DNA of 64,000 bases from an uncultured Flavobacteriaceae bacterium (GTDB lineage: Bacteria > Bacteroidota > Bacteroidia > Flavobacteriales > Flavobacteriaceae). The stretch is taken from the NCBI GenBank assembly GCA_947489085.1, contig CANLCJ010000001.1:124001-188000 (forward strand), in the 5' to 3' direction. The notes beneath the pieces were generated by a model. It had not been told where the DNA came from. It saw only the letters and a program-made list of their open reading frames with translations, and did no database searches. Both the position numbers and the translations under genes were made by a program. Positions 9,391 to 61,477 of the stretch are shown in pieces; position 1 is the stretch's first letter, and every line of letters starts with the position of its first letter.

Positions 9391-9432
9391 GGATTAACAT
9401 TTTGCTTCCAAAAGTAATTCTATTTTATAAAT

Positions 9433-9592
9433 GAATTCATCTTGACTTTTTCTATTTCTTAAAAAATGGCTGAAATTCGCCCGTATTTCGTTACTTTTTT
9501 TGTCCGTAGCGCCACTATGAGCTTCAAAAAGTGCCTCTTCTGGTTAGATTTCAACTCATTTTCAGTTAAAAATGAAAAGTTAAGATGGGTTC
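9433..9592 (-). repeat. 160-bp dispersed repeat, subfamily A, copy 1
   Basis: This 160-bp intergenic block has imperfect terminal inverted repeats: the left end reads GAATTCATCTTGACTTTTT and the reverse complement of the right end GAACCCATCTTAACTTTT. On the minus strand it carries the core TTTTTGAAGCTCATAGTGGCGCTACGGAC. It matches 61108-61267 along its whole length in the same relative orientation, with roughly 80-85% identity by eye. It begins 4 bp after the stop codon of the DCC-family gene, in that gene's orientation, and its far end lies 42 bp from the rdgB start. Confidence 0.85.
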
Positions 9593-9596
9593 AATG

Positions 9597-22777: not shown

Positions 22778-22851
22778 GAAATGTACTTTGCGATACATTA
22801 ATGAGGTATAGTTATATTTTACAACCAATTTTTTGAAGATAATGACACAAT

Positions 22852-23013
22852 GCAGTGATTTAAACTTTTTTGATTCTAGCGAAAATTCTAGATTTTTTGT
22901 TCAATTGAAGTATTTTTTGAAGTTCACAGCAGTGCCATGGACTGAGAAAAAAGACAAAAATGGTATGAAAAAGAAGATTTTTATAGCGAATTGGAAAAAG
23001 TTCAAATGACTTC
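22852..23013 (+). repeat. ~160-bp dispersed repeat, subfamily B, copy 1
   Basis: This 162-bp block begins GCAGTGATTTAAACTTTTTT, and the reverse complement of its right end reads GAAGTCATTTGAACTTTTTC, forming terminal inverted repeats. The centre carries TTTGAAGTTCACAGCAGTGC. It matches the reverse complement of 52157-52316 along its whole length at roughly 90% identity by eye. Its right end lies 12 bp before the small membrane-protein gene, so it occupies that gene's promoter region. Confidence 0.88.
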
Positions 23014-23025
23014 AATACTAATCTT

Positions 23026-52125: not shown

Positions 52126-52156
52126 AAAAAATGTAACGTAAGACAGTCTTAATAAT

Positions 52157-52316
52157 GAAGTGATTTCAACTTTTTTCAATTCGCTATAAAAATCTTCTTT
52201 TTCATTCAATTTTTATCTTTTTCTTATTCCATAGCGCTGCTATGAACTTCTAAAACACTTCAATTGAACAAAAAATCTAGAATTTTCGCTAGAATCAAAA
52301 AAGTTTAAATCACTTC
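52157..52316 (-). repeat. 160-bp dispersed repeat, subfamily B, copy 2
   Basis: The left end reads GAAGTGATTTCAACTTTTTT and the reverse complement of the right end GAAGTGATTTAAACTTTTTT, so the terminal inverted repeats match in 19 of 20 positions. On the minus strand the core reads TTAGAAGTTCATAGCAGCGC. It is the reverse-oriented partner of 22852-23013, roughly 90% identical by eye. It lies 109 bp after gap in the opposite orientation. Confidence 0.9.
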
Positions 52317-52753
52317 AATGCTACAGAATTATTTATAAAAAGAGAGTCTAAAGCTGCACATTCTTGAGCAATGTGCAGTATTTTGACACTAAAACATGGT
52401 GGTTGGCCTCTGCGTTTCACTTTGCATTCTAATACAACAGAAACGTTTAATGCGCCATCAGATTAACTCAATTTTAGGAATCCTATAAGCGCTAATACGG
52501 CCATTGAGAAAGGGCACACCGCATGAAATATTTAAGCTAAAACAATACGTAATGCGTGTAACGCATATGTAATACTTGTTTCTCGGAGAAAATCAGCCTA
52601 CTTACTATAAATATTCCATATTAATTTTCAAATTATTCTCATTAAGAAACTACTCATAAATATGCTTTCGAAAAGGCATTTGAAGCACTAAAAAAATACT
52701 ATTTAAAATACAATTTATGGTAGAGGTGCTTGAGCAAAAACTAACTTAGTACA
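52317..52753. other. Non-coding stretch before the protease gene
   Basis: A 9-bp perfect hairpin (CTGCACATT / AATGTGCAG, 52354-52378, 7-nt loop) is the only clear structure. The remainder shows no protein-like frame and no recognised promoter box. Confidence 0.4.
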
Positions 52754-55622: not shown

Positions 55623-57476
55623 ATGGCAGAACAAACAAAATACACCGAGGATAATATACGTTCATTAGACTGGAAAGAGCATATTAGAATGCGGCCAGGA
55701 ATGTATATAGGAAAACTTGGTGATGGATCTTCTCCTGATGATGGCATCTACATTCTCTTAAAAGAAGTTTTAGATAACTCCATAGACGAATTTGTCATGG
55801 GAGCAGGAAAAACAATAGAAATTTCCATCCAAGGCAGTAAAGTAATTGTTAGAGATTACGGGCGGGGGATACCATTAGGAAAGGTTGTAGATGTAGTATC
55901 TAAAATGAATACAGGTGGAAAGTACGATTCTAAAGCCTTTAAGAAATCTGTAGGACTAAATGGAGTAGGTACAAAGGCCGTAAATGCACTTTCCAACTAT
56001 TTTAGAGTAGAATCTAACAGAGACGGAAAATCGGCATCTGCAGAATTTGAGCAGGGTAACCTTACTAACCAAGAACTTTTAGAAGACACATCGCGTAGAA
56101 AAGGCACAAAAGTAACCTTTGTACCAGATGAAACTATTTTTAAAAACTATAAATACCGTAACGAATACATCGTAAAGATGCTGAAAAACTATGTGTACCT
56201 AAACCCAGGGCTTACCATAGTTTTTAATGGCGAAAAATATTATAGCGAAAACGGCTTAAAAGATTTATTGGCAGAAAAAATAAACGAAAGCGATTTACTA
56301 TACCCAATAATACATTTACGCGGCGACGATATAGAAATAGCATTAACCCATAGCAAAACACAATACAGTGAAGAGTACAACAGCTTTGTAAATGGACAAA
56401 ATACAACGCAAGGAGGTACGCACTTAACAGCCTTTAGAGAAGCCATAGTAAAAACCATAAGAGAATTTTATGGAAAAACCTACGATGCCTCAGACGTTAG
56501 AAAATCTGTAGTTAGTGCCATAGCAATAAAAGTTATGGAACCAGTGTTTGAGAGCCAAACCAAAACAAAATTAGGCTCTACAGATATGGGAGGCGAATAC
56601 CCCACAGTAAGAACCTATATTAACGACTTTGTAAAAACCAATTTAGACAACTATTTGCATAAAAATGCAGATACAGCAGAGAAGTTACAGCGAAAAATAT
56701 TGCAAGCAGAGCGCGAACGTAAAGAACTATCTGGTATACGAAAGCTTGCCAAAGACCGAGCAAAAAAAGCAAGCCTACACAACAAAAAATTAAGAGACTG
56801 CCGTGTGCATTTTGGAGACACAAAAAACGAGCGTAATTTAGAAACTACATTGTTCATTACAGAGGGCGACTCGGCATCAGGAAGTATAACAAAATCCAGA
56901 GATGTTAACACCCAAGCCGTGTTCAGCTTAAAAGGAAAACCCTTAAATTGCTACGGTTTAAGTAAAAAAATTGTTTACGAAAACGAAGAGTTCAACCTTT
57001 TGCAAGCCGCTTTAAATATTGAAGAATCTCTAGAAGACTTAAGATATAATAATGTGGTAATAGCCACCGATGCCGATGTAGATGGAATGCATATTCGTTT
57101 ATTGCTCATTACCTTCTTTTTACAATTTTTTCCAGAAGTTATAAAAGAAGGCCATCTTTACATTCTGCAAACACCCTTATTTCGTGTACGTAACAAGAAA
57201 GAAACTATATATTGCTATACCGAACAAGAACGTGTTAATGCTATAGAAAAATTAAAACCTAAGCCAGAAATTACAAGATTTAAAGGTTTAGGTGAAATTT
57301 CTCCAGACGAATTTCAACATTTTATAGGAGACGATATAAGACTAGACCCTGTAATGTTAGACGATAACATGTCAATAGACGAATTACTGGCATTTTACAT
57401 GGGCAAAAATACCCCAACGCGACAAACTTTTATCATAGATAATTTAAAAGTAGAGTTAGATTTAATTAAAGAATAA
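55623..57476 (+). CDS. parE: DNA topoisomerase IV subunit B
   Basis: This 617-aa protein is the ATPase subunit of topoisomerase IV (gyrase-type), which decatenates chromosomes after replication. The start is the ATG at 55623 ([30 protein letters not shown]). The GHKL ATPase motifs [18 protein letters not shown] and [12 protein letters not shown] are seen, and the Toprim motif EGDSASGSI and [12 protein letters not shown] follow. The C-terminal part ends in LDLIKE. It is shorter than many ParE proteins, as in other Bacteroidota. A phytanoyl-CoA dioxygenase-like gene begins at the base after its stop, between it and parC. parE rather than gyrB is chosen from the parC neighbour. Confidence 0.94.
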
Positions 57477-58427
57477 ATGATATTAAAGCAGTACAAAATA
57501 ATAACTCAACTTTACAACCTGTTTAACAAGAAATATTTGAAACATAATATTCCCTTATTTAAAAAATATGGCTTAGATAAAAAATACTACTCTTCAATTT
57601 CAAGCCAAGACTTTAAAGGGCTTCAAGAAGATTTAAATATCTACGATGTTAACAACTCTAAGGATTTACTGCATAAAGACCCTAATTTTATGCGTTTAGA
57701 AACGCATATTCAAAAAGCAATATTAAATTGGTCAGACAATGGATATGCTATAATTAGAAGTTTTTTTTCACGAGAAGAAGTAGATACTATTAACAACGAA
57801 ATAGAAGATTTAATAGATACAGGAAAACTAAAGATAACTTACGATAAGAGCAGATACATGTTTGCCAATCGATTGTCTAAGTTTATAGACAATCTTGCAA
57901 AACACAGAATGCAACCAATATTAGAAGTTTTGTTGAAGAAAAAGATAACACTTTTTCAAACTATAAATTTCAAAACAGGAAGCGAACAAAGCACGCATTC
58001 TGATTCTATTCACATGACAACTTTCCCCAAAGGTAACCTCATCGCAGTTTGGGTAGCGCTTCAAGACATAACAGTAGAAGATGGCCCTTTGCACTACTAT
58101 CCAGGATCTCATAAACTCGATTATATAATGAACGAGGATTACGATAATTCGGGAACACGCTATAAGTTAGGAAATAAAACATATTCCAATTACGGAGAAA
58201 AAATACAAGAGGTTATAGATTCAAGTAAAATTGAAAGAAAACAATTCTTGGCCAAAGCAGGAGATATTCTTATCTGGCATGCAAACCTTTTGCATGGAGG
58301 CGATAAGATTAATGTAGAAGGTAATACAAGAAAAAGTATGGTGTTTCATTATTATGCAGACGATGTTATATGTTACCATGAAATTACTCAAAGACCCACT
58401 TTAAAAGGTAAATTAAATCACAACTAA
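57477..58427 (+). CDS. Phytanoyl-CoA dioxygenase (PhyH) family Fe(II)/2-oxoglutarate oxygenase
   Basis: This 316-aa protein has the PhyH double-stranded beta helix. The 2-His-1-carboxylate iron site is THSDSIHM (HxD) and WHANLLHGG (distal His), followed by RKSMVFHYYAD with the 2-oxoglutarate-binding Arg. The segment VWVALQDITVEDGPLHYYPGSHKL is diagnostic. PhyH oxygenases hydroxylate lipids, amino acids or secondary metabolites. The start is the ATG immediately after the parE TAA (TAAATG), so it is translationally coupled to parE, and parC begins 25 bp after it. Substrate unknown. Confidence 0.9.
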   Translation: MILKQYKIITQLYNLFNKKYLKHNIPLFKKYGLDKKYYSSISSQDFKGLQEDLNIYDVNNSKDLLHKDPNFMRLETHIQKAILNWSDNGYAIIRSFFSREEVDTINNEIEDLIDTGKLKITYDKSRYMFANRLSKFIDNLAKHRMQPILEVLLKKKITLFQTINFKTGSEQSTHSDSIHMTTFPKGNLIAVWVALQDITVEDGPLHYYPGSHKLDYIMNEDYDNSGTRYKLGNKTYSNYGEKIQEVIDSSKIERKQFLAKAGDILIWHANLLHGGDKINVEGNTRKSMVFHYYADDVICYHEITQRPTLKGKLNHN

Positions 58428-58452
58428 AAATTACAGGTTTACACAATAAATA

Positions 58453-61104: not shown

Positions 61105-61107
61105 ATA

Positions 61108-61267
61108 GAACTCATCTTAACTTTTTGTTTTTAACCGAAAATGAGTTGAAAATTTAACCAGATAAGGCACTTTTTGAAGTTCATAGCAGCGCTACGGACG
61201 AAAAAGTAACGTAATATAGGTGAATTTCAGCCATTTTTTAGGAAATAGAAAAAGTCACGACGAGTTC
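61108..61267 (+). repeat. 160-bp dispersed repeat, subfamily A, copy 2
   Basis: It begins GAACTCATCTTAACTTTTT, and the reverse complement of its right end reads GAACTCGTCGTGACTTTTT. The core reads TTTGAAGTTCATAGCAGCGC. It aligns over the full length with the reverse complement of 9433-9592. It starts 3 bp after the parC stop, in the same orientation, and may act as the parC 3' end. Confidence 0.88.
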
Positions 61268-61477
61268 ATAGTATAGTATTGCCTTAAATGAATAGATTTT
61301 AAAAATATATTTCTCAGTACTAGGACAAATGCAACAAATATGTAGAATTTGAATCATTTGTTTTACGCCTTTTTTACTCATATACAATAGTTTAGCCAAA
61401 AGTAGTGTCGCAAAAATCACGTTAAAAAAGAGATTTTTAGTGGCAAACTATAATTAACTAAATACAAATCAATTAAT
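61268..61477. other. Intergenic region upstream of the T9SS protein gene
   Basis: The 210 bp between the repeat and the next gene are AT-rich, with no exact promoter match and no repeat recognised. Confidence 0.35.

Follow-up and report, generated by a model that had tools for sequence, protein, structure and literature searches.

The four interspersed repeats in the stretch of flavobacterial DNA analysed here (64,000 nucleotides, hereafter the window) are, judged by their sequence, MITEs, that is gene-less jumping DNA hairpins of ~160 bp. The account that best explains them, and one that is very probably right, is that they are mobilised by IS5-family transposases and that their interior represents an independent conserved hairpin of a long-lived satellite lineage with changing ends. 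The preliminary description had suggested either a mobile non-autonomous element or a structured element. Mobility is borne out by 3-bp target duplications, an empty site for copy 3 and an end type shared with IS5-family elements, and structure by a 58-pair hairpin with covarying pairs. The repeats are neither restricted to the four copies and devoid of a fold nor part of a gene, either of which had been named beforehand as speaking against such an element. They combine dispersed copies, inverted repeats, target duplication, an empty site at one locus and ends of the same type as those of an autonomous element with the lack of a transposase gene, for which 160 bp is too short.

Copy 1 (9433..9592, minus strand, 160 bp) belongs to subfamily 1, with GAACTCATCTTGAC-type ends, and lies 4 bp past the stop of a DCC1-like gene and ahead of a purine NTP diphosphatase gene, in the same orientation as the two genes. 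Copy 2 (22852..23013, plus strand, 162 bp), flanked by convergent ORFs, carries the GAAGTGATTTAAAC-type ends of subfamily 2, to which copy 3 (52157..52316, minus strand, 160 bp) also belongs, the latter having a GAPDH gene on one side and a DegP/HtrA-type protease gene on the other in the orientation opposite to both. Copy 4 (61108..61267, plus strand, 160 bp), again of subfamily 1, is found 3 bp past the stop of the DNA gyrase/topoisomerase IV subunit A gene and is co-oriented with both of its neighbours. The coordinates, strands and lengths (160, 162, 160 and 160 bp) reported earlier were reproduced when the copies were re-located, and no convincing fifth copy was found with the covariance model in the 64-kb window, the next distinct match having E = 0.028. 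Identical 3-bp flanks occur on both sides of all four copies, being ATT on the minus strand for copy 1 (9430..9432 and 9593..9595), AAT for copy 2 (22849..22851 and 23014..23016), ATT on the minus strand for copy 3 (52154..52156 and 52317..52319) and ATA for copy 4 (61105..61107 and 61268..61270).

The division into two sequence subfamilies, made originally by eye, was upheld by computed identities of 88.1% between copies 1 and 4 (earlier estimated at ~80-85%) and 91.2% between copies 2 and 3 (earlier ~90%), against 75-80% of aligned bases between the groups. With nhmmer inside the window copies 1 and 4 were linked at ~2e-30 to 3e-30 and copies 2 and 3 at 1e-27 to 2e-30, with the best link between subfamily 1 and subfamily 2 at E = 1.1e-5. 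The central core described for all four copies is present, and in copy 4 the apical core CATAGCAGCGCTACGG (61182..61197, plus strand) forms the hairpin apex and is common to both subfamilies. Terminal inverted repeats are likewise present, with 15-18 of 19 positions matching in each window copy; those of copy 4 lie at 61108..61126 (left, plus strand, 19 bp, of the same type as the termini of a 913-bp IS5-family element from genome G136) and 61249..61267 (right, minus strand). The single end form proposed for the whole set, GAAxTxATxTxAACTTTTT, held only in part, the outer GAA and inner CTTTTT being shared while the middle differs between the subfamilies, where it is subfamily-specific yet still largely complementary between the two ends. 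All four copies are located between ORFs and, as had been noted, no protein is encoded, the best frame being stop-free in just 8 of 159 copies; their position and the lack of any frame kept open rule out that the repeats are part of a gene or yield a protein product.

A search of the whole 3.65-Mb assembly found 14 full-length copies and one truncated copy of subfamily 1 and 11 full-length copies of subfamily 2, such that the 25 full-length copies represent two related lineages kept in one genome, as previously proposed. Deleted forms of 77-97 bp that retain both ends were matched at five places, while no plasmid match was found for either subfamily and no phage match for subfamily 1, the subfamily searched. 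Across the host genome, its genus and its family, 102 of 112 copies are 158-162 bp long, a count affected by the picking of ends for the 43 own-genome and genus copies, which favoured lengths near 160. The 112-copy set leaves out L054, L065, L067, L085 and L087, the ends of which are unclear, together with L139, L141 and L144. A scan for exact subfamily-1 ends in named genomes (at least 107 stretches, of which 80, L174-L253, were used) gave 96 matches. A partner end lies at 150-172 bp for 55 of them, and the remaining 41 belong to copies that are deleted, enlarged or cut or are ends standing alone. Lone exact 19-bp ends that have an unrelated interior and no convincing partner (L181:814, L193:7635, L194:752, L203:5117, L208:1503, L221:6222, L226:2019, L231:3722 and L249:4912) are possibly relics, or ends reused near genes.

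Exact 3-bp target duplications were found in the flanks of 63 of the 112 copies, compared with 12.2 expected from mispaired flanks, leaving 49 copies without an exact duplication. Shifting the flanks by 1-5 bp gave 1-8 matches and a 4-bp match was seen in 1/112. In a second set, comprising exact-end copies in named genomes, 30/58 have a 3-bp duplication, as do 16 of 28 copies outside the family, often TTA or TAA. An empty site was found at one locus, that of copy 3 in the congener G001, where both flanks align and the sequence is 163 bp shorter, corresponding to 160 + 3 bp; a few substitutions are seen at the junction itself, so the argument rests on the length. The downstream flank of copy 4 has no match in G001, G009 or G003 in which an empty site could be read. 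Copies with matching flanks occur in different species (L138 in G004 and L139 in G008; L059 in G000 and L051 in G001) and some insertions are therefore inherited rather than recent.

IS5 subgroups, IS1031 and ISL2 among them, generate 3-bp target duplications, and IS5-family elements of ~900-930 bp with the same type of 19-bp ends as the MITE, which we take to be IS1031/ISL2-like, are present in the same bacterial family. A search by ends (2 mismatches) revealed no autonomous copy at IS spacing in the genus of the host, while an end search in ten genomes identified the 913-bp element of G136, which has subfamily-1-type ends and a broken transposase gene, the first frame scoring above the PF13340 cut-off and below that of NF033580 and the second matching NF033580 weakly. 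No exact 3-bp duplication was detected in the flanks of this element. Related IS copies of ~904-929 bp occur in G136, G052, G307, G373 and others, with two products of ~290 aa exceeding the cut-offs of NF033580 (IS5 family transposase, transpos_IS5_3), PF13340 and PF01609. Exact 3-bp duplications flank 11 of the 18 IS copies and relics that could be delimited by their GAA/GAG-type termini. The ~904-929-bp copies end in GAAGTGATTTAAAC on one side and mostly in GAACTC(A/G)TTTAAAC on the other, with GAGGTGGTTTAAAC in G052; IS5-family elements in which the transposase frame is open have ends of TTTAAAC type, and the two with CTTGAC-type ends are broken. A decayed relic of 680 bp with subfamily-2 GAAGTGATTTAAA(T/C) ends is present in the host genome itself (contig 8, outside the window), having no exact duplication; this relic and the G136 element, neither of which has an exact duplication, are the two IS copies of greatest weight for the pairing. 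A 538-bp relic in G083 is flanked by an ATT duplication and carries GAAGTCATCTTGAC on one side. From these shared ends we infer that an IS5 transposase moves the MITE in trans.

The IS ends often differ by side, with GTGA at one and CTCA or CTCG at the other, whereas no pair mixing GTGA with CTC is found among the 40 commonest MITE end pairs listed, such that no single IS simply accounts for the MITE ends. Of the 91 copies bounded by GAA, at least 31 have the same 11-nt end box on their two sides. Relatives of the IS were detected in 17/397 family genomes (E <= 1e-20) and the MITE is present in 8 of these 17 compared with 72 of the 380 others (Fisher p = 0.0098). At the same threshold 72 of the 80 MITE carriers have no detectable IS relative, which counts against a simple MITE-IS pairing; the MITEs may outlive their partner IS or may use further IS5 members beyond those searched. 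The IS elements carry a ~290-aa transposase and have nothing convincing in common with the MITE interior. Derivation of the interior from an IS by internal deletion was rejected when five interiors were compared with 12 IS by best local score, each set against the highest of 30 plain shuffles, as only 2/60 scores beat the top shuffle. One IS5 element (L319:1458-1506) has an inverted repeat of its own, GGGTTGC...GCAACCC, ahead of the transposase gene.

The 58-pair hairpin was derived on alignment A2 (43 copies, G-U allowed; L032, L051, L065, L085 and L087 left out), in which 90.3% of cells are paired, while RNAalifold alone on A2 gave 23 pairs, 20 of them with double changes. In alignment A3 (63 rows, 62 of them new to the structure, with L154 and six G136 copies left out) 93.5% of the hairpin cells are paired, a figure that leans towards the hairpin because the model used to find these rows was itself derived from A2, compared with 43-56% for slid versions of the hairpin. 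On A3, 38 pairs show double changes against 25.8 in shuffled alignments and the number of double-change cells is 508 against 187. Within the family, 53/63 rows of A3 have U-A as the pair closing the internal loop below the apex and 42/63 have GA/AAA or GA/GAA as the loop, while the two pairs next to the closing pair are Watson-Crick in about half of the rows (31/63 and 33/62). Rfam gave 0 gathering matches in the window and none on the element in four loci at E <= 5. A sub-threshold match to the Rfam family Flavo-1 (L081:992-1060, minus strand, 35.5 bits with a gathering cut-off of 42, E = 1.6e-4) lies ~400 bp from a MITE copy in G010.

With the covariance model the MITE was detected in 80 of 397 sampled genomes of the family and in 60 of 237 genera, which are lower bounds because at most 7 candidates per genome were scored. 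Among the matches listed, exact subfamily-1 ends occur in named genomes of Aquimarina, Snuella, Flavivirga, Lutibacter, Galbibacter, Maribacter, Kordia and Tenacibaculum, as well as others. Of 395 class genomes sampled, 25 gave the element, two from its own family and 23 from 10 other families, and 28 copies could be read from 22 of these 23 genomes. Their ends differ, for example GAGCCTGTTTAAA or GAAGTTGTTTAAA, though the core is recognisably the same, a likeness that is partly a condition of being found because the search used a model of the element. In alignment A5, which holds 25 of the 28 copies (L403, L404 and L406 left out), the hairpin comprises 1106 Watson-Crick and 83 G-U cells of 1435, compared with 816 and 140 after shuffling. 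That the inner core is kept in many families of the Bacteroidia suggests that it does something.

On a quick tree of the interiors, made without a shuffled control from 160 copies with short interiors (115 labelled by end type), at least 10 switches of end type between CTTGAC and TTAAAC were counted, and different ends are found on interiors as much as 87% identical. There seems to have been one old satellite lineage, in which the transposase partner changed and the structured core was kept. While MITEs are usually viewed as short-lived debris of one IS, here a single satellite lineage with a folded core seems to be class-wide, with repeated changes of transposase partner.

In the mechanism favoured here IS5-family transposases would act in trans on the 19-bp inverted ends, consisting of GAA, a variable box and CTTTTT, and transposition would duplicate 3 bp of the target. 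The two subfamilies would correspond to two end types of the partner IS, with the satellite lineage switching end types as it follows different transposases. The inner ~122 bp is not a deleted transposase gene but an independent conserved hairpin of nearly fixed length, presumably kept since a folded single strand renders the insertion harmless or useful, this strand most likely being RNA made when a neighbouring gene is transcribed. The covariation could, however, stem partly from template-switch repair between the arms of a palindrome. An ordinary IS5-mobilised MITE whose interior is neutral filler, with a hairpin that is an old palindrome symmetrised by template switching during replication and an unselected core, is a rather unlikely alternative. 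In its favour, G-U pairs show no excess over A-C mismatches relative to shuffles in the own-genome interiors (17 vs 29, ratio 0.59, shuffled 0.80) and, within the family, it is only the loop closing pair that is well kept, the neighbouring two being retained in about half of A3. There is also precedent in the Bacteroidia for MITEs that have IS5-type ends and lack any remnant of a transposase, namely BrickBuilt and MITE464 of P. gingivalis (PMC4596501). Neutral filler would not, however, predict a core that stays recognisable in the 28 copies from 10 other families despite their differing ends, nor a length held at 158-162 bp in 102/112 copies, and there are conserved unpaired letters beyond what template switching explains. 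The GA/GAA internal loop below the apex is found in 23 of the 25 class-level copies and its closing pair covaries, being C-G in 18, U-A in four, A-U in one, U-G in one and C-A in one, and hence C-G, U-A or A-U in 23/25. A search with a model of the element may favour copies with a kept core and loop, though it would not favour a change of U-A to C-G.

A different emphasis would make the interior a functional structured RNA, either a cis-acting mRNA element or a small RNA, with the IS5-type ends as its vehicle and the plus strand as the working one, a reading to which somewhat less than an even chance is given. Where the neighbouring genes lie in tandem, the element points the same way as they do in 48 cases and the opposite way in 17 (p = 1.5e-4), which suggests that the core may work as RNA. 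A second set gave 21:13, which is not significant alone (p = 0.23), and the copies counted are not all independent. This second set was drawn from 116 matches, from which 43 duplicates on the second strand and 8 matches that were short, cut or irregular were removed to leave 65, and a further 7 already counted to leave 58 copies, 57 of which entered the G-U/A-C count. The plus strand folds more stably than the minus strand in 38 of 43 copies, these being related to one another, and the GA/GAA loop is rich in purines on the plus strand alone, an asymmetry indicative of a single strand of plus sense. In family copies found with the model, G-U pairs exceed A-C mismatches in the interior (91 vs 19, ratio 4.79, shuffled 2.06) and not in the terminal inverted repeats (21 vs 19), although model-found copies may be biased towards G-U. 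The excess is smaller in exact-end copies (67 vs 39, ratio 1.72, shuffled 1.29) and in genus copies (14 vs 9, ratio 1.56, shuffled 1.50) and is reversed in the host genome, while a strand-neutral count on A2 gave 227 G-U against 173 A-C, close to base composition. Taken together, the G-U/A-C counts are mixed, the strong excess of one set having failed to recur cleanly in the others. The element also has no Rfam match. It is less likely than not, though quite conceivable, that the MITEs form a class-wide lineage of structured RNA travelling as a transposon satellite, in which a plus-strand core of ~120 nt works as RNA and the ends are exchanged between IS5 transposases; the core RNA would then sit in the mRNAs of adjoining genes or act as a free RNA, giving a mobile noncoding RNA in which vehicle and cargo evolve independently. 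An element of the REP/RAYT or IS200/IS605 type, for which a tyrosine (HUH) transposase works on single-stranded hairpins, would fit a repeat that is a hairpin throughout and the finding of 0/170 copies inside a reading frame (frames called by a simple rule and not by a gene finder). The HUH mechanism is not known to make target duplications or terminal inverted repeats, and because of the 3-bp duplications it was set aside; as terminal inverted repeats are present and IS5-family elements with matching ends exist, such an origin is highly improbable.

Several known bacterial repeats invite comparison with the IS5-mobilised hairpin favoured here. ERIC is a short palindromic element of near-fixed size (~127 bp) with a TA duplication, and the Correia elements of Neisseria, similar in size to the 160-bp element, have a TA target and other ends. 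ERIC differs from the element described here in sequence and in the taxa that carry it and the Correia elements likewise occur in other taxa. ERIC is, as here, a mostly intergenic MITE spread over families, in that case of enterobacteria, and when transcribed can influence mRNA stability, while Correia elements are hairpin MITEs the transcripts of which are cut by RNase III (PMC10969869). Closer in lineage, BrickBuilt and MITEPgRS/MITE464 of P. gingivalis, also in the Bacteroidia, have no transposase remnant and have the ends of the IS5-family elements ISPg1, ISPg4 and ISPg9, their GAG... termini resembling many of the class-level copies, and BrickBuilt is intergenic as are the elements here (PMC4596501). 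The P. gingivalis interiors differ in consisting of tandem repeats of 23 nt (BrickBuilt) or 41 nt (464/PgRS) with no BLAST matches outside P. gingivalis, and the consulted part of that account, with which comparison was made by description only, describes no 160-bp hairpin or shared core (PMC4596501). A MITE of Cardinium, also in the Bacteroidota, is likewise thought to be kept by its parental IS but is an IS982-family derivative reported in one strain (PMC9769881). No description of the 160-bp element was found in the literature searched, which comprised top-ranked titles and the openings of abstracts, most subscription journals being outside its coverage. The element stands as a candidate mobile noncoding RNA without an Rfam family match, and the natural range of ends and interiors among its copies could be used to study which ends a transposase selects.

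Some observations concern individual loci. The segment at 57467-58451 of the window, with a 316-aa ORF (57477-58427), lies just before the topoisomerase subunit A gene and has no match in G001, G009 or G003, though both flanking sides align there. Enlarged copies of the MITE were seen at L223:1781-2084 (304 bp), the apex of which holds an inserted palindromic repeat bounded by the direct repeat AGCATCGCT, and at L236:1271-2022 (752 bp). L085 and L087, both from G009, are alike in having one arm extended by some 60 bp of similar sequence, and two Aquimarina copies (L174:4373-4563 and L227:3808-3997) have a common added segment of ~30 bp, also in one arm. The right ends of subfamily 1 contain ATGAGTTC, because of which several downstream frames start within the element (distance -8), and insertion of a subfamily-1 copy may supply a start codon.
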